Source: Geosiphon pyriformis
Taxonomy: Eukaryota > Glomeromycota > Glomeromycetes > Archaeosporales > Geosiphonaceae
Reading direction: 5' to 3'
Assembly: GCA_016748015.1 (NCBI GenBank)
Contig: JAAOMT010000468.1
Coordinates: 288,998 to 352,997 of the forward strand
DNA: 64,000 nucleotides
Shown: positions 46,480-56,876 of the stretch, one piece after another
How positions within the stretch are numbered: the stretch's first letter is position 1
Layout of the letters: each line of letters begins with the position of its first letter
Notes under the pieces: generated by a model
Database searches by the model: none
The model's input: only the letters and a program-made list of their open reading frames with translations
What the model was told of the DNA's origin: nothing
Made by a program: the position numbers and the translations under genes

Positions 46480-49400
46480 CTATACACCTATATAAACATG
46501 GGGGCAACCATCTAGACCTGAAAAAAAAAGGCAAGGCCTGCAATGGCCAAAACTAACGGCAAAAGACTTAGCAATGCCAAGCATTCTCACCACACTATCT
46601 AAAAGCACAGAACACACCCTATGTGACAAACCTGAAACCAAACAATTATCACTAACCAAGCCAGTCTTCTTTATGTTCACTCTAAATTTAGATCTAACCA
46701 ACCAGATCTTGAATTGATGCAGCTCAACCAAGAACCTCACAAACTCAACCACCACTCCGGAGGCTTTTTCAGCATCCTCAAAAACACCTGCTGCCTCAAC
46801 AATCCAACTTTTCATCACAAAACCCTTACACAAAACCAAATACCTGTCAACATCCAAGTGACAAAAATCAAGAACTTTAAAAACAGAAGAGAAAACCAGA
46901 TTACAATCGCCAACCAGAGATGCCCAGCATGCAGAAGTCTTCAGAAAAATATCTGTCCAGATGTGAACATCCTGCGAACAAGTAAAAACATGGTCTGGCA
47001 GTTTCACCTCCCTGTACAACAAACACCGAACACCTGGATAACATTTATTATATAACCTTTTTCTGACAGCTATCAGTAACCTTTTGTGTACAGCCTTCAT
47101 TAAATATGTTTGAAGATCAGCTGATTTTCAGCTAGTAAACTCAGCAAGCATGTGTGAGTTAGGATGCCAGACCCTTGCCAAAACAACCCAATCAAACTCC
47201 CCCAGCATGTCAACTGAGACCACATTCCGGCCTGGACCAGCCTCCCAGTGAGCATGACAAATAGATCTAAACACATCCCTAATAAAGTGATGGATGTTGC
47301 CTGAAATCACAGTGTTTTCAGTCATCAAACAATGCTTCCATATCCTTATTAGCAACATGTAGAAAGAGCCAGCAGCTTCACCTGCAGACTCATTGGCTCT
47401 CATATTGCCAAGAACACCGACATGACCTTTGACTTTGACCCAATTCACACTGAGATTCTTATGCCTAATCAAGTTAAAAATATGCCTCCTTTTGATCCAG
47501 CAGTAATTACGAAAGTCCAGAACAAGAAACAATAACTCAGAGACACAAGCATCAATTGCAGCTTGGCTGTCGAGATGCAAAATCACAGAACAAGATAATG
47601 GAACACATTCTAAAGCCAGAGCAACAGTCTGCAACTCAGCCATAGTAGAAGATAAAAGGCCAAAAACCCTGACACCAACATTCAAATCCAAAGCCGGGAA
47701 GTACACAACAGCACCACTCAACACATCAGCAGATCCAGCACCCCTTAAGGACCCATCTGTATACACTTCAAAACAGCCAAACCAAATTTCATGTAAACCA
47801 TTTCATACAAAAGAAAACACATCAGAGCTCGTAATACTCAAACCACCAGAATAAACAGCACCAGTAAAACCCAGGGAGGAAAAACTCTGATCCAGAAAAA
47901 ACTTAGAAGTGACTGCAAACCAATGGGGCACAAGACCCCATGGATCCAAATGTTTCTAATGACGAAAAGTCTTTCAATTCAACAACTCTCCCTTTTTATC
48001 AAAAAGCTGATCACCAAAAGCAACACCAAAGCATTTAAGAGACCAAACAGAACTAAAGTAAAGAGACTCCCCAAGAATTGAAAACATTGAAAAATGGCCA
48101 AGATGACAGAAAGCACTAGGAATGTTGTTTACCAAAGAAAAATTATTGTCCAAAAGAATTTTCACAACATCTGCCAAAAAATTGTTTACCAGGCTAACAT
48201 GCAACTTGACAGAAAATTGAAAAAGATCCAAAGGAGCCCAACCCAGAACCTGCAAGTCCAGAAATCTATGCTCAAACAAGTGGCCAAGAATGCCAGAGGC
48301 ATTAGCAAAAGAGATCAAAGAAGCCACCTTTCCCTCAGACTACATCTGCTCAAAAGACTTCAAACCATATAGTAAAGAATGATACAAAGCAGAATCAGGA
48401 AAATCATGATGCAGATGTGCTTTGAATTTAAGATTCTTCCTAACCAAAACATTCCACTTGTGGTACACACCAGATGAAACAAAACTAAACTGCATTTAAT
48501 AACTAACAATGGACTGTAAAACAGCTGAGACCAAATAGAAAAACTGTTTATCCGTGATCGTTTTTCTGAGCACCACATTGATGAAAAACCAAACATTTGA
48601 GTGAGCCTTGGCCAGACTGGGTTTGGACAACCCTTCAGTTGACAAAAAAATCCCCAAATATCTGTAAGCTTTACCTTTCTTTGCAATAGAAATCGGCTGA
48701 CCACTTATATTTAAAGAAACAACCTTGACACTCTGATTAATTGGTATGGCTACTGTCTTCTCATTGTTTATAGAAATATTATTGATAAAAAAAAACTCAC
48801 TAACAATGTTCAAAGCATATTGCATGAAAGCCTGGCAATCTTCAATTCAAATCATATTATCCACAAAAGTGCCAGCTGCAAAGAAGGAGGTCATCCCACC
48901 ACTATTCTCAATCCTGCCAGTTTTTGCCATGAACTTAGTATTAACGCAATATCCACACAAATGCTTATGCCTTTTAATTTCACACAAAAATGAATCATAA
49001 AAAATCCTCCAAAGAAGAGGCGAAAAGACTTCACCCTGATTAAGGCCATTATGCACCTTATAACTATCTGAAAAACCAAAATCAGTTATTACTCTATTAA
49101 CCTTATTCATATGAATACTACCAAAAAAGCCAATAAACTTTTCACACATTTTGATATGACGCAGGCTAGCTCTCAAATGATGCCAACCAACAGAATTATA
49201 TGTTTTGTGCATATCTTGCAAAACCAACCAAAGTTCTCTATCCTTCTTAAAAGCATCTTTGACTACCAACCCAACAGCAAACACAGGAGATTGAGTAGAA
49301 GTACCTTTCAGCACCAAAAAATTGTCACCATGGAGAATGTCAAACTTGTCACATGTAAAAGAGATCCTGTCTGAGAGAATTTTGAAGAGAATTTTCCTGG

Positions 49401-51171
49401 CTGTTTCAATCAGAGCAATAGGGCGAGTATTTGTTAAAACTCCATCCCAATCATAAGGTTTTGGTATCATTAAGACCCAGGCTTTTTTCCACAAAGCAGG
49501 CATAGAACCAACAGATAAACACACATTCAACAACACCAAAAGACACTCCATCACCCTCTCACCACTATGTTTCCAAAGTTTATTAGAGATGCCGGATAAG
49601 CCAGCAGCTTTACCATTGGACAAACCACCAATGACCAAAAGCAACTCATTCAAACTAACTGTACTTATAACACCAAAAAAAGTATCATCCTTAACATGGG
49701 CCAAGGGAGCATACTGATAGGCCCAAAGATCTGGCAGTATTGAAGGCACCACCCACCTCCTCATCCAATCCTCCATAATTTCATCAATCTTCAATTTTAC
49801 TTCCTCCGGCTTCAAAACAAGCTCATCATCAACAACTAAATGATTCAGAATAACCTTCCAAAAGGGCCAATCTAAAACACACCTAATTATGCTACCTTTG
49901 TCAGAACAAAATTTTTTCATGTATTTTTTAATAGCATCTTTAATAAAAGCCACCTGTAACAATTTCAATTCATACATTTTGAATTTCCTGTACCCCTTCT
50001 TGACAATTGATAAAAACTTGAGAATGTCAACCCCTCTTCAATCAGACTGAACCATATCCACCAAAACAAGAGTCTTATCAGCATCTAACATAGACCATTT
50101 CTACACAAGGTGATCAAAATCAGAAATATCAGCCGAGCCAAATTTTTTGACAATTTTGATAATCAGCAACTTCAAGCCCAGAAACTTAGAGGAATGTTTG
50201 TTTTTTGAATACCGAACTTCATTAAACCAACACCAAGAAAACGTTTTATCTGCAGAATCCACCAATACCTTTTCCAGCAACAACCACATAATATCCAAAT
50301 TTAGCTTCACAGCAGCAATATGAAATTTATCTATTACACCCAAAATCATGGCAGAAAAGCAGTCCCTAAAATGAGACCACTCAGCATTATCAGCATTCTT
50401 AATATTAAACTTCAAATGATTCTTGTTAGTCTGCTTGCATAAGCTATTCAAATAGACATTTAGAAATTTACCCAAACCAATAGAAATCATAACAGCATTG
50501 TGATTAGTGTTAAAAAAGTCCAAAACAGAGCCAACCCTATGGCCAGCAACAGCAGAAACCAAATTCTCACTAACAAAGATAAAATCAATAGTCTTCTTGA
50601 CCCTCTTAGAATTACTCCATATAGAAGCCCCAATCAAAGATTGGCCAACAAATGAATTGACCAAACCCAAACCTGAGCAGAATTTGAAACATGTACTCCT
50701 TTCTAATCCATTTTTGTTGAAGTCACCACCAAGAACAACAAAAGTGCTGGAGTTAATGGCCTTAGCAATAAGAGAATTCACCTTAGAAGCCTGACCAAAA
50801 CGAACACCAGAAGAGACACCAGTGTACAAACCAATAACAGAAATTGAAAGTTTATTCCTGAACAAAAGCTGCACAGCAATAACTTGGCCAGGAACCTTCT
50901 CAATCTTAGAAACATGACGAGCCAAAGAATTGTTCATGATAATAGCAACACCAGCATCAAGAAAACCAACATTTAAACCAGAAGTAAAAATTTGAACACC
51001 ATCAAATTTATTCTTGATCCAAGAACCAATAGAAGACCTTAATTTTGTCTCAGTAACAAAAGACACCATCAAACTAGATTTCACATGCCAACAGAGAACA
51101 TTGACCTGCTTTGCAGGAACATTGATACCTCGGACATTACACATTGCAATTTTCCATATTAAAACACTCAT
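46480..51171 (-). pseudogene. LINE ORF2, endonuclease / reverse transcriptase / RNase H (multiple in-frame stops)
   Basis: One continuous frame from ATG 51171 to 46480. The N-terminal AP-endonuclease-like domain shows CNVRGINVPAKQ, VTETKL, VVLGGDFN and KTIDFIFVS. The reverse transcriptase shows TRPIALIETARKILFKIL, NGLNQGEVFSPLLW and the active-site motif FVDN (normally FVDD). RNase H shows VYTDGS, MAELQTVAL, LDSQAA and WVKVKGH. In-frame stops occur near 50101, 50041, 48847, 48496, 48342, 47974, 47956, 47802 and 47125. Several fall at codons that are Trp, Arg or Gln in the family, which fits C-to-T or G-to-A change. No frameshift was found. The element cannot make a full ORF2. Confidence 0.85.
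51168..51171 (-). promoter_or_regulatory. ATGA stop-start overlap of LINE ORF1 and ORF2
   Basis: On the minus strand the bases ATGA at 51171-51168 form the ORF2 start codon (ATG) and the ORF1 stop codon (TGA) at once. This arrangement is used for termination-reinitiation in some other non-LTR elements. An upstream in-frame start for ORF2 at 51210 is possible but gives a non-conserved extension. Confidence 0.65.
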
Positions 51172-53054
51172 TGAGAAGAAAAAGGTAAGAGAGAACCTGG
51201 ACCAGAACACAAAAGATTTAATCTAGCCAAAACAGAATCAACAGAAGCCTCCAGAGCCAACATTTTAAACTCCAAACCACTCATCTTGGTAGTTAGAACC
51301 TTCGAACTACTTGAATTGAAGCCAGCACCCAAATTAGCACTTGAAGGATAGGGAGTGAACAACACCAACTCATTGTCTAGAGCCATATTAGAATCCAAAA
51401 CAGAGACCAAAGGCATAGAGCCAACCAAAAGAAGAGCACCAGCAAATGAAACTATGGGCACCAACTCCACAAAATTCAATTTCCTCACAATACCAGAAAC
51501 CTGTTCAGCCAACAGCTCGAGAAAACATTCCAAAAATGCCAAGCAAGTATTTAAAGAAGAATCGTTAATTGTAGAAGAGGAAGAACCACCACCTAAACCC
51601 AAAGTTGCAGAGGGATAGAAGCCAATACCAAGATCAGAACCAGAAGGAGAGCCACCAGAAAAGGAAGCAAAAGAAACTACCTGAGCCCATGATTTGCCAC
51701 TAAAGGCAGCAGAATGAGAGATAGAAACATTTTTCTTTGCATATAATTTGGCCAACTGAAAACGATCCACACCAGAAGCATGTTTTTTATTAAACAAACT
51801 CAAGAGATCAGAAGGCGACATATCTGACACATTACACTCTAGAGCCGAATGACCAAGACACTCACACTTTCTACACCAAACCAAATCCAACCTAGTTCAT
51901 GAGAGATGAACACCACCAAAAACAGGCTCAATGAGAAAAGCAAAATCCAGATCATTTTCGGATTCGAAGCCAACCACAGCACAACAAACTCTATTGCCAG
52001 AGTTCAATGAACAATTAATAATACAAGTTTTGCCACCAGTATTATCCAAAAGATTACTAAGATTATGCACAGTTGTTCCCATCAGCAAAGTAAACAAAAG
52101 CACCCTAAAACAATTCCTAGAGGCCCAGATATTACAATCTTCCATGGTTTTTGCCACACACACAGAATTTTTCTTGATTAGGAACGACCATTTCGAAGCC
52201 AACATATCAGCCTGACTTGATTTAGCAAATTCCACTATAGCCTTCTGCCATAACCTAATTAGTTGCACTCTGATCGACTTAATTTCACCAAATTTGGTAA
52301 CTGCGGTAACAATCATATCCTTTGGTGTGTTCATGGAAATTTCTTTGATCACCACAGCCCAATCTGAGCAAATTCCTTGTCTCTTAAGATTGCTGTTTAC
52401 TATGATGTTATTTTCTCTGGCCAATGACACAGCCTTTTTCATGCTCTCTGATGAAGTAAACATTGATCTGATAATCCCTTCAAATTTTGAGGGGGTAGTG
52501 GCCTCCCCAAAACCATTGATTTTCAAAAACAATTTTCTGATGACTTGAGTTTTGGCCATAGCCAATTTGCCTTCCACAGCTGAGAGATTAATGTCCAAAG
52601 CAAAAGACTTTTTCACAGACACCTCAACCTGAATTTTAACAATTTTAGGATCAATCCACTTTTTTTTTAAAGAGATAGATACACGAAGGAGAAGCACAAT
52701 TTCTTCATCATTCATAGTGAAGTCAGGAGAGCCAAGTAGAGAACCAAACATCATGCCAGTATCAACACATTTTGCCTTGGGAGTGGTTGTAGCTGAACCC
52801 AAAAGAGACCCTCCATATACACCTGTCATGCCAACATCCTCATCATCACCAGACAGACTATCCACATTAGAGTACACACTATTACCAGGCCCAGATTTAC
52901 TCAAAGAGATATTTCTCTCATCACTAGAGTGTTTAACATTGCCAAGAACCACTTTTTTTTTCTGAACAAAAGAACCACCAGCAGGACCATGGAAAGCACC
53001 TTTGAGCGCCTTCTTTTTTGACATATCACCACCCGAAGCAGTCTTCAAATCCAT
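51168..53054 (-). pseudogene. LINE ORF1, RNA-binding gag-like protein (one in-frame stop)
   Basis: 628-codon frame starting MDLKTASGGD. The first third is Ser/Gly-rich. The conserved central block has KINGFGEAT, SNLKRQGI, VVIKEISM and GGKTCIIN. A CCHC zinc knuckle CRKCECLGHSALEC lies at about 51837-51878, then a Ser/Gly-rich linker and a helical tail ending LLPFSSQ. The frame is broken once, at 51897-51899, where TGA stands for a conserved Trp codon just before the knuckle. Translation past it stays in frame to 51168. Expected to bind element RNA. The stop codon overlaps the ORF2 start (ATGA, 51171-51168). Confidence 0.85.
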
Positions 53055-53185
53055 GATGAAGGAGTTATTGTTTAAGAAAATGTTGAAAGAAAACTAACAA
53101 AAAAATAAAAATAAAAAAAACTTCTTTTTCAGAAAATGTGCTTTTTGAGGATTTTTGGAGGTAAGAGAGAAAGAAGTTTTTGATT

Positions 53186-53727
53186 TCCTTAAATTCAATT
53201 CAATTCAATTCAATTCAATTCAATTTAATTAATTAATTATTATATTGCAATATATTTAAGTGGTATTTATAAATTACAACTATTTGAAAAATTAAAAATT
53301 ATATATTGTTTCAGTTTAAATAAAATAATAAATTGAAAATTTAAAAAATGGCAAATACATAAATATTTTATAAAGTTTTAAACAATTAATAATTAAAATT
53401 ATTATTAATATTTAATTAAAAATTATAATAATTAAAAACAATAATATAATAAAAATATATTTATGTTGTAAAGTAATAATAATATATTTAATTAAAAAAA
53501 CAAAATATATTTTTACAATAGTAAAATTTCAAAATAATTATTCTGTAAATAATATTTATTTGTTTAATGTCAAAAAATATAATAACAAAAATTATATTGC
53601 TAAAAATAAATGAATTTTATGTTTAATTGTTAAAACTTATTTTTTTATAATTTGAGTTTACATTTAATCATAATATAATTGAATGACATTTATTAAATCA
53701 ATAATAGGGAATACTAAGCATTGCTAT
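53186..53727. other. GAATT microsatellite and AT-rich spacer
   Basis: Pentanucleotide tract (AATTC repeated about six times, 53191-53220) followed by 450 bases of AT-rich DNA without genes, between the LINE 5' end and the end of the TnpB/Fanzor relic. Confidence 0.6.
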
Positions 53728-54990
53728 TTAGCCTTCTATTATTTCTTGCATGGTCACTGTGGGACCAAGCAATGCCCGGAGAAAGATCTCCCGAGCGCCA
53801 TTTTCATCTCTATCTATCACAATCCCACCATTCCGGCAGTTGTACATTTTAGACCCTCCGATTCTTTGAATGTTGCCAAATTGACTATAAATGTTGATGT
53901 GTAAGCTTCATTCTGAATAATAACATGAAAACGACCCCTAATTCCTCGGCCTTGCTGATCAGGCATTGTCGAAGCGATAATGCATTTTCCGGACAGTTTT
54001 TCCTGTAAATGGTCTACTTCAAAAGGCGGAATAACAATGGCATTGAATTCGTGGGTAAAGAATATAACTGATTTTTGGTGAATTTCACTTTGCAGATGCA
54101 TAACTTTTCCTCGCATCCGAAAAATCGCCTTATCGAGTCGCCAGGCCATTTTAACCTTACTTTTTGATGAGAATCTTAATAACTTATCCTTTTATGCAGT
54201 TGAGATCATTCAAGTACTTGCCAAGCTGGCCTACACCTTTTGTGAAAGAGTACTATGTAAAAAATGTACGGACGCCAAAATCAATAACAGAGCCATCCGC
54301 TTGGTTTCGCGGAGCTTCCACTCGTTAGTTTTGCGAGAGTAAGTGAGCTTGCTATCTGAAATTATCTTGTAAGGAACGGGCCACCTATTATTATGCCTCT
54401 TTTTTCGAAATGAAGAGGCACAAGCAGGCTTATAATTATCCAAAATAGCGGTAGGCTTATAACAATGTTTAGTAAGCACCGAAGGATTATGGAGATAAGT
54501 GACATAGAAACAGTTCCATGTGGATTTCGAAACATTCTGCGCACTGTTTGTCGCAGATTTTTTCGAGATCGAAATGATAGAGAGTGTGTGCTAATAGAAC
54601 TTGCCGATTCGCATTACGCTTAGTTAATTCTTCCCTAGCAATCAATGCTTAATCGATTGCCTCATTGATTATACTCGCGAGCGCTTTGACGTGCATAACC
54701 CGAAGCGATATTCCGAGACACACAACAATTCGCATGAATTTACGCTCGCCCCATATTCCAACTTTTCGGAGTTTCTCGTCTTCATGTTCATTACCATCTT
54801 TCCTGCCTGAACATCTGTGTAAAATTAAGTTTATCTTTGATGTGATTGAGGCTTTATCCAAGCCTGTTGTAATGGACTGATATGGGAATTTTTGGTATAA
54901 AGGTGGCATGTCGACTCCAGTAGACAACAGTGTCGTAAGCAAATCTCATCAAGAGTTGCTTTTGAAGATGATTCGGATAAACCTTGATTA
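53728..54990 (-). pseudogene. Decayed TnpB/Fanzor-type RuvC nuclease (IS607-type OrfB)
   Basis: Relic of an RNA-guided-nuclease family gene (TnpB in prokaryotes, Fanzor in eukaryotes). Three frames must be combined. RuvC-I: GSVIDFGVRTFFT (54257-54295), matching the family's DPGVRTF. RuvC-II: FNAIVIPPFEV (54016-54048), with the catalytic Glu. RuvC-III: DRDENGAR (53793-53815), with the catalytic Asp. Between them lie RMRGKVMHLQSEIH, the EAYTS motif that precedes the zinc ribbon, and a degenerate ribbon (FGNIQ, then YNCRNGG, with Cys lost). Upstream, DSKLTYSRKTNEW matches the pre-RuvC strand and an REYNQ block at about 54670 the WED-domain start. At least two frameshifts and several stops make it non-functional. 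The last stop is at 53728-53730. It follows the TnpA relic in the order typical of IS607. Confidence 0.78.
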
Positions 54991-55450
54991 ATAATGTACG
55001 GTTTAGAGCATCTGACTTTTGGGACGAGTTGCTGTCCCTTTTCCCTTGCTAGGCAGCTCTCCTTCCTTAGATGCAGCAGATGAAGACTGTGTTGATGGCA
55101 AGAATATCTTGTGGGAGCTCATGTCATATCGTCGAAGAGAACCACGAGTTTTGCAGAATGGAGAAAAAGATATATTAGAAGGGTTCGAAGGCAACTCGGC
55201 AGAATCTATCACGGTGGTTGATCACAACTTCCGCGAACGTTTGAAGTTGATAGAAACATGACCCGATATTGTAGGTTGAAAAATCGAAAGTTGCTTTTGT
55301 CGCTCGAAATCCTCTTTTGCTTTGCACTAGAGACACGAGCATAGAGGTAACCTTTCTTGGTGGTTGTACCAGCATTTTGAGAAGTTAGCTCAGGAAAGAG
55401 GGAGTTGGGTAAACATTACTAAGTAACTGATTGATATTTTCATTGATAGG
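54991..55450 (-). pseudogene. Decayed IS607-type serine recombinase (TnpA)
   Basis: Minus-strand frames read in succession give GYLYARVSSAKQK (about 55310-55350; ARVSS holds the catalytic serine), EDFERQKQ, EVVINHRDRFCRVAFE (about 55185-55232), SAKLVVLFDDM and LPQDILAINTVF (about 55081-55116). These are diagnostic of IS607-family TnpA, whose members have VVAHRDRLCRFAFE and DILAI-TVF in this order. Frameshifts and stops separate the blocks. The MerR-like N-terminal DNA-binding part is not clearly readable; 55380-55451 may be its remnant. It lies directly upstream of the TnpB/Fanzor relic in the same orientation. Confidence 0.75.
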
Positions 55451-55512
55451 CATTATTTAGCAAATCTTTTTATCAGTATCCCAGAGATCCCAAGGCCGAA
55501 CTCTGTCTTAGC

Positions 55513-56876
55513 ATGGATTTGAGACCTTTGTCTGAAACGAAGGTTCGAGCCAACCCAAGTTTTCAACAAGTTGTAAAAGTGTTCTCAACACAATTTTCTT
55601 CCTTTTCCATATAATACTACTACTAATAACAGGAGGACGTTCGCTCGGACAAACTCCAACTTACAAAGATCATGTTCGGTGCTGGTGTTTTTAGTGGTAG
55701 ATATCATTTAATGAAGGATAATTGGCCGTTGGAAGCAGTTCGCCGCGCTTTAGAATTAGGTAAACAGAACAAATAGGCAAATCAGCTAATAGGGATTGGA
55801 CGAATCTCGTTAACGAAATTATTATATTTTAAAAGTTTTCTGAATTTGATTTTTTATTAATTCTATAGGTATCAATGGGTTCGACACTAGCCCTTTTTAT
55901 GAGGATAGTGAAATCATTCTCGGTGATGCGTTGTACGCCTTAAGAAATGATTATCCTCGATCGAGATATTATTTGTCCACGAAGGTGGGGCGTTATGGTT
56001 TCCTCAAGCAAGATTTTGATTATTCAGCTCAACGCGTAGAAGAAAGCGTCACTACTAGTATCGCACGATTGAAAACCGATTATTTGGATGTGGTGTTTGC
56101 TCATGATGTGGAATTTGTGGACATTGAAGAGGTTGTGGGGGATGATGGAGCTTTATCAAAACTGTTCGAGATGAAGGCAAGAAAAAGTGCTGATCCTATG
56201 AAATTATTATGGTTGTTGATTAAATCTCCTACACATAATAGAATCAAGGAAAAATCCGTAACGTTGGTATAAGTGGCGAGTTATCAATTATTATTAATTA
56301 ATTTTGTGCAATTTAAAAATATTATGGCTGTTAATGAATAATATTTGGCTTATCTTAGGCTATCCCTTGGATATTCTTCTGAATATAGCACATTTACAAT
56401 ATGAACGTAATCAGCCACTCGACATCATTCTCACCTATTGTCACTATAATCTACAAAATACTCTTCTAGCTGATTATGCGCAGAAATTCCGAGGGGTAGG
56501 TATAAAATACCTGTTAAATGCTTCTCCGTTAAGTATGGGCCTTCTATGTAATGATCCATGCCCAAATTGGCATCCTGCATCTCCTGAGCTACGCGAAGCT
56601 GCTCAAAAGTGCGCTAAAATCGCCCAAGAAAATCAATTGAATATTGCTAAACTCGCCTTGGAATTTTCGTTGGAGTGGGATGGCGTTGACAGTACTTTAA
56701 TTGGGTGTTCAAACAAAAATGAAGTAGAAGAGGCAGTGGCATTGTTTAATAATTTAAAGGCTCGTCAAAAGGCGCGTCAAACTAGATCAATCCAAGAAGA
56801 GCAAGTCTTGGAAAAGATCGCACAGATATTGGCACCATATCACAATGTTACATGGGCTTCACCGCCACCAGAGTAA
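55513..56876 (+). CDS. ARA2: D-arabinose 1-dehydrogenase-like aldo/keto reductase
   Basis: NAD-dependent aldo/keto reductase of the Ara2 type, which in yeast oxidises D-arabinose to the lactone used for D-erythroascorbate. Exons 55513-55569, 55633-55759, 55869-56176, 56242-56275 and 56359-56876 give 347 residues (yeast Ara2 has 335). Motifs: GINGFDTSPFYEDSE with the catalytic Asp/Tyr region, LSTKVGRYG, the catalytic-His equivalent in FAHDVEF, KIRNVGISGYP across introns 3 and 4, and LIGCSNKNEVEEA at the cofactor site. Introns 3 and 4 need GC donors (AAG|GCAAGA and GTG|GCGAGT) to restore this motif. For intron 3 a GT donor six codon positions downstream with another acceptor is an alternative. 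Exon 1 may extend to 55578. The start codon is about 60 bases from the IS607 TnpA relic, which runs divergently. Confidence 0.87.

Follow-up and report, generated by a model that had tools for sequence, protein, structure and literature searches.

A decayed IS607-type element with a Fanzor2 nuclease relic in Geosiphon pyriformis, and a nuclease frame kept open across the transposase gene in its relatives

The window, by which we mean the whole 64,000-nucleotide stretch of Geosiphon pyriformis DNA that was analysed (contig JAAOMT010000468.1, positions 288,998 to 352,997), carries on its minus strand a confirmed decayed IS607-type element, in the order tnpA then tnpB. Its features, from the left end of the element to the right, are the following.

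53681..55477, minus strand: whole decayed IS607-type element, delimited by similarity to dispersed copies and by aligned ends
55435..55477, minus strand: left end (LE), in the copies close to GATGAAAAGATTTGCTTAATAATGCCTATCAATA and related to the right end
55082..55400, minus strand: tnpA relic, serine recombinase catalytic domain, in two frames, with FPELTSQN, YARVSSAKQK (55343-55314), HRDRFCRVAFE (55216-55184) and DILAINTVF (55108-55082)
55003..55221, minus strand: N-terminal extension in the tnpB frame, lying over tnpA in another frame (STTVIDSAELPSNPSNISF...); matches a 193-codon open frame of sibling L062, with stop counts from 22 copies
54854..55006, minus strand: N-terminal helix-turn-helix region of tnpB (LNRTLLIKVYPNHLQKQLL...); sibling L060 matches PF12323
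54262..54288, minus strand: RuvC-I block VIDFGVRTF (54288-54262), reading IDFG in the window and IDPG in intact relatives and sibling L046
54018..54020, minus strand: E of IPPFE (within IPPFEV, 54032-54015), called catalytic in the original prediction; not conserved
53907..53909, minus strand: E of QNEAYTS, at the E_alt position of Fanzor RuvC-II; invariant E473 in relatives, with a sibling aligned to mimivirus Fanzor2 9b0l
53728..53886, minus strand: zinc-ribbon remnant and RuvC-III block DRDENGAR (53814-53791); PF07282 E 0.002 on 53728-53907
53681..53722, minus strand: right end (RE), 18 copies aligned, many close to TGCTTAGTATTGCCTATTATTGATGTGTTACAATCCATCCG

The peptides quoted in the original prediction, located above, all lie on the minus strand and in the order it gave, and stops and shifts interrupt their frames, in agreement with its view of a dead copy. 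Comparison with other copies, in which similarity begins no earlier than query position 17-30 and mostly ends at 1804-1812 (the query being window 55500-53640), places the left end at about 55474-55477 and the right end at 53681-53697, slightly outside the span first described. Two related repeats were recognized by eye at the left ends of copies, as were putative direct-repeat-like TGCTTA-TA-TGCCTAT motifs at both LE and RE, the end positions being uncertain by several bases. Just beyond the right end, open frames on the minus strand at 48850-53093 with a reverse transcriptase match (PF00078, E 5.5e-11) and a weak RRM match represent a probable LINE-type retrotransposon, and a strong GC skew is found over 46-52 kb of the window. 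Beside the left end, on the opposite strand, lies an aldo-keto reductase gene (55850-56876, plus strand; PF00248 E 8.7e-10 on 56298-56876).

Taken alone the window copy is weak, since only one of its eight pieces (53728-53907) matches PF07282, at E 0.002 and below the cut-off, and none of the eight matches a recombinase family; it is accepted as real because of its recurrence in the same genome. In the 124.7 Mb and 406 contigs searched, the RuvC piece of the window gave 153 matches at E<=10, 27 of them, besides itself, at E<1e-10 and 35-65% identity, and PF07282 gave 117 matches at E<=1, of which 68 were over the cut-off. The resolvase family PF00239 matched six times, three over the cut-off, two of these being one place on overlapping contig ends. 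Since three of the six PF00239 matches (on contigs C397, C348 and C329) are closely followed by a tnpB relic in the same orientation, the IS607 order seen in the window recurs elsewhere in the genome, which bears out the tnpA-tnpB layout first proposed. After merging of matches the relics amount to about 150 places (151), counted from most of the RuvC-piece rows (weaker and some adjacent ones left out), the 68 PF07282 rows over the cut-off and all six PF00239 rows. In a DNA search with the window copy, in which 40 of 193 candidates were scored, the longer matches to siblings show 66-81% identity; sibling L050 matches PF07282 at E 9.4e-14 and sibling L060 matches PF12323 at E 3.7e-5, both over the cut-off, the latter sibling also matching PF00239 at E 1.8e-4, just under it. 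The profile search and recurrence check suggested in the original prediction came out in its favor, with PF07282 and PF00239 each matching over the cut-off at places in the genome and the RuvC piece recurring genome-wide.

The Geosiphon copies examined are all old and dead. None of the 20 loci read (sense strand only, frames of at least 110 aa) has a TnpA or TnpB frame of at least 200 aa, the longest open TnpB-core frames being 170-177 aa, and the intact siblings anticipated at the outset did not appear: with the intact relative P0001 as query the longest stop-free match in the genome covers 139 of 469 residues (91 of 618 candidates scored). Longer, uninterrupted relatives occur outside this genome. 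The Geosiphon pyriformis protein P0015 (G9A89_017284) has the sequence of an open frame in copy L050 (contig C354). Another public model, P0120 (G9A89_008819), joins ICMT/PEMT-type domains (PF04140, PF04191) to a Fanzor2 relic (PF07282), a combination that is probably an annotation artefact, and tnpA and tnpB pieces are also joined in the gene models P0037, P0043 and P0116. An apparent recent pair of identical copies on C310 and C397 (L040 and L062) was discarded as a contig overlap, one contig ending where the other begins with 0 mismatches in 2182 bases; the end of C310 and the start of C397 are unmerged in the assembly, and counts at this place are consequently doubled.

Regarding the identity of the nuclease, D335, P336 and G337 are invariant in 20 aligned relatives, as are E473 of NEAYTSKT and the D of RD, and sibling L046 reads IDPG at RuvC-I. 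According to the available portion of Yoon et al. 2023 (PMC10711439), Fanzors and cyanobacterial pro-Fanzors are recognizable from DPG and from a Glu that precedes the zinc finger by six residues, and it is because of the same DPG and Glu placement that we assign the element in the window to the Fanzor2/pro-Fanzor clade. The E of IPPFEV, taken as catalytic in the original prediction, is replaced by N, G or K in siblings L047, L063 and L062 and is not invariant among the 20 relatives; this candidate was rejected in favor of the invariant E of NEAYTSKT, which would place the catalytic Glu of the window at 53909-53907. The C4 zinc ribbon followed by RD is eroded in the window, and PF07282 matches over the cut-off at 68 places. 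The best solved relative by sequence is the mimivirus protein L79 (PDB 9b0l, E 3.9e-11), which is also the best by fold. Judged by its sequence features, the nuclease is a Fanzor2, and the Fanzor/TnpB assignment of the original prediction holds. The conserved RNA foreseen at the tnpB 3' end did not emerge, as no Rfam match was obtained at the right ends of elements and the consensus fold of the right-end RNA is weak (-2.5 kcal/mol, 18 decayed copies).

In several relatives roughly 130-185 residues precede the helix-turn-helix of the nuclease and correspond to the catalytic region of tnpA read in another frame. This extension can be aligned from bacterial proteins to P0029, a protein that the tree places on the fungal side. 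The bacterial set consisted of the best 79 of 389 loci, ranked with an extension-bearing query, and in 73 of the 79 the tnpB frame is 500-581 codons long. A tnpA frame of at least 150 aa and readable codons made 56 of these loci testable, and in 55 of them the tnpA body is free of tnpB-frame stops; summed over the 56, a single such stop was observed against 194 expected from synonymous shuffles, and 486 third-frame stops against 593, bearing in mind that the shuffles ignore codon context and that the third frame and the controls also fall below expectation. Two further sets were meant to reduce the ranking bias of the extension-bearing query. From IMG/VR all 40 relatives were kept and 26 tested, 25 of them in the clade and some near-identical; the in-clade loci hold 17 tnpB-frame stops versus about 87 expected, summed over loci, and the outgroup IS607 element L175 holds 18 versus 20.8. 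A core-only query (363 aa, no extension) run on 194 genomes of the phylum of the Oscillatoria genome G001, the source of locus L073, found matches in 9 genomes, and all 17 near-full-length stop-free core matches, four of them from G001, sit in open frames of 478-579 aa.

When 76 of the 110 bacterial and IMG/VR loci were reduced to a non-redundant set of 42 elements at 80% TnpA identity, tnpB-frame stops were found in 0 of 4751 codon cells from column 197 on, versus 97 of 2012 cells in the helix-turn-helix part and 8 of 1165 cells after it. The tnpB residues P, Y, L and S are conserved at 93%, 90%, 98% and 95%, respectively, at places where tnpA is conserved at only 50, 50, 45 and 62%, and across P/Y/W, the L/L/P of LWLP and S/W/F the tnpB residue is 88-100% conserved in the 42 elements; the remaining motif columns are less informative, as tnpA itself is 74-100% conserved there. 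Likewise, four-fold degenerate third bases of tnpA codons are fixed at 0.93-1.00 at columns 222, 224, 235, 238, 263 and 264, against a maximum of 0.57 in the helix-turn-helix part. A Met is present between the last stop and the tryptophan of PYW in 42 of 42 elements, the first one 16 to 113 codons before that tryptophan.

Conventional IS607 elements served as controls, nine in number (L175, L186-L190 and L193-L195), and displayed 53 stops versus about 68 expected, with no such open frame and a tnpB frame open for 0-304 bases into tnpA. Among these, L186 (67 tnpA codons tested) and L190, L193 and L195 (few stops expected) are weak controls; L185 was dropped as no tnpB was found, L191 because both genes share the same frame, and L192, from plasmid A of Trichormus variabilis ATCC 29413, was set aside as a member of the DPG clade. 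A search for additional controls with the L175 TnpB as query matched only L175 itself, and no relatives of P0001 or P0103 are encoded in the viral contigs searched. The tnpB frame is open across the tnpA catalytic domain in this Fanzor2 lineage and in its bacterial pro-Fanzor relatives, a long overlap that the original prediction had missed; its IS607 layout, nuclease, host and dead copy stood, its catalytic Glu did not, and no intact sibling turned up among the candidates scored.

The same arrangement can be read in the relics. In sibling L062 the 193-codon open frame runs from the extension into the helix-turn-helix of tnpB, and when 22 Geosiphon copies were aligned to it (twenty identical or overlapping loci having been dropped) stops occupied 37 of 1882 codon cells in the tnpA frame (2.0%), 28 of 1884 in the tnpB frame (1.5%) and 95 of 1870 in the third frame (5.1%). 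The third frame has five positions with stops in 10-13 copies; the tnpA frame has one position with stops in 7 copies, which by its location coincides with the end of the gene or adjoins it, and two with stops in 3-4, and the tnpB frame has three recurrent positions of 3-4 copies each. These patterns most likely reflect an ancestor in which the tnpA and tnpB frames were open and the third was closed. The extension is also present in the Diversispora models P0021 and P0034 and in the 647-aa P0029. Its motif blocks are ordered in an AlphaFold prediction, and among the matches listed (Foldseek, VIA) the mimivirus Fanzor2 9b0l is the only structure that reaches them, with its residues 53-110; since a profile of the extension alone found nothing significant in the PDB, 9b0l included (best E 0.5, to other proteins), the mimivirus match of this segment rests on fold. 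The PYWN, LWLP and SWFS blocks probably pack on the nuclease body.

Other readings of these data have to be weighed. Geosiphon pyriformis houses Nostoc, and a recent acquisition of the element from this endosymbiont might be suspected, given that Nostoc genomes carry the pro-Fanzor IS607 family (L080, L097) and that cyanobacteria account for most of the nearest bacterial relatives of Fanzor2, as stated in the available part of PMC10711439. Nevertheless, in a tree of 41 rows a branch with 100/97 support splits 5 labelled bacterial and 12 environmental rows from all Geosiphon and Glomeromycotina rows, and the read-through of the window copy shares 49% identity with P0001 across 96% of its length, compared with 37-41% identity to Limnothrix and Moorena proteins over 42-45%. 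Transfer from the symbiont is accordingly highly improbable and was rejected on the tree. The Geosiphon rows fall into an 18-row group (90/95) with proteins of R. irregularis, Cetraspora and environmental sources, L046 standing apart from the other four; this agrees with the Glomeromycotina-like host first proposed, and the phylogeny suggested at that stage did separate bacterial and fungal sides, with no yeast, mollusc or giant-virus reference rows in the tree and an inner order left unsure by long branches and short fragments. That the locus is bacterial contamination, or a set of chance peptides in AT-rich DNA, would fit a window copy that on its own stays below the Pfam cut-offs, but the roughly 150 recurrences with shared ends in a fungal assembly and the aldo-keto reductase gene adjoining the element reduce this to a negligible chance.

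More pertinent to the overlap is the objection that the open tnpB frame is accidental, a product of composition, of a conserved TnpA and of gene calling by the longest frame, and that TnpB in truth starts at the helix-turn-helix. The two IS607 genes are said to "often overlap" in the portion seen of PMC6188088, overlap being mentioned also in that of PMC9956272, in both cases in general terms; some clade proteins stand in databases without the extension (P0112, P0088), and the controls too lie somewhat below the shuffle expectation. Composition and conservation would, however, have to leave the stretch from column 197 on wholly free of tnpB-frame stops and not the helix-turn-helix part of the same genes, and to fix four-fold third bases exactly where these set a conserved tnpB residue. 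Furthermore, L162, a tnpB on an IMG/VR contig around which no tnpA-like frame of at least 90 aa is listed, keeps PYWDDFC...SWFS with a shortened linker, and is a candidate for an extension freed from the overlap. We therefore regard an accidental frame as quite improbable. A distinct proposal, compatible with our main explanation, is that the subfamily amplified in Geosiphon was non-autonomous, had no DNA-binding domain in its TnpA and was mobilized in trans. In the copies with the left end read (about ten), LE is separated from the catalytic domain by about 100 bases, which could not accommodate a MerR-type domain such as that of the R. irregularis relative P0116, and no N-terminal domain of this type was seen there; the genome holds 12 matches to the domain (best E 3.2e-9), mostly away from the listed tnpB relics. 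Decay could yet mask it, left ends were read in only about ten copies, and at C120:264705 a MerR-type match (E 0.19) precedes a tnpB relic of the same strand by about 1.5 kb. The amplified form may thus have depended on TnpA supplied in trans, a tentative proposal to which we give somewhat less than even weight.

Our preferred explanation, which we hold to be very probably correct, is that the locus is a Fanzor2-lineage IS607 fossil, among some 150 old relics in Geosiphon, and that tnpA and tnpB are interlocked in its relatives and still legible as such in the relics. From what is known of the family, TnpA, a serine recombinase, would have moved the living element via its ends, and TnpB/Fanzor2 would have cut DNA under the guidance of a right-end RNA, this cutting probably serving to retain the element once it had been excised. 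In the relatives, the nuclease frame overlies the catalytic domain of TnpA, in a different frame, for its initial 90-190 residues or so, with conserved blocks that are predicted to be ordered and probably pack on the nuclease body. Because the extension is encoded over tnpA and probably packs on the nuclease, tnpB could presumably not be cleanly freed or lost without touching tnpA. The Geosiphon copies examined have all decayed since. Translation of the extension is putative and deduced from frame conservation.

Concerning its origin, we hypothesize, with a modest preference over other histories, that the N-terminal segment of the nuclease was born by overprinting within a bacterial IS607 transposase gene, became structural, bound both genes to each other and entered eukaryotes with Fanzor2; the overlap would have persisted in fungi, and the segment may have been released from it in some viruses. 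If true, the interlock would help to explain the paired evolution of tnpA and tnpB in this lineage, and the overlap itself makes it possible to test directly why the nuclease and the transposase remain associated. The origin of Fanzor2 would also involve a long and ancient overlap of two genes on one strand, a rare case, preserved from bacteria to fungi; truncated models may be common among the annotated proteins, and expression constructs may miss a structural part, in a group of nucleases that are probable ancestors of Cas12 and are under development as editors. From the Geosiphon relics it can be seen that a fungus once had this arrangement, which then died out there.

Compared with known systems, the element shares with the Fanzor2 of IS607 elements, as described in the available portions of Bao and Jurka 2013 (PMC3627910) and Yoon et al. 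2023 (PMC10711439), a TnpA upstream on the same strand, DPG, E_alt and a C4 zinc ribbon followed by RD, and no inverted repeats were noticed at its ends, which are placed to within several bases; the Geosiphon host and the dual-coding N-terminus were not met in those portions, and the Geosiphon copies examined are dead. N-terminal extensions in Fanzors are mentioned in a figure legend in the part seen of Saito et al. (PMC10432273), and among the matches listed from the open literature neither a dual-coding nuclease N-terminus nor IS607/Fanzor in Geosiphon was found. The cyanobacterial pro-Fanzor TnpBs (Yoon et al. 2023, PMC10711439, available portion) have in common with it the RuvC signatures and a tnpB frame open across tnpA, but are bacterial, fall on the other side of the tree and, in three of four TnpA frames examined, retain the DNA-binding domain. 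In the Acanthamoeba polyphaga mimivirus Fanzor2 (L79, 9b0l) the extension is unmatched by the sequence profile. The conventional IS607 controls share the tnpA-tnpB order and, unlike the DPG of this clade, read DLG at RuvC-I in five of nine, none being picked up in the other four. The fossil itself is ordinary, and it is the overlap of the two frames that sets its lineage apart.
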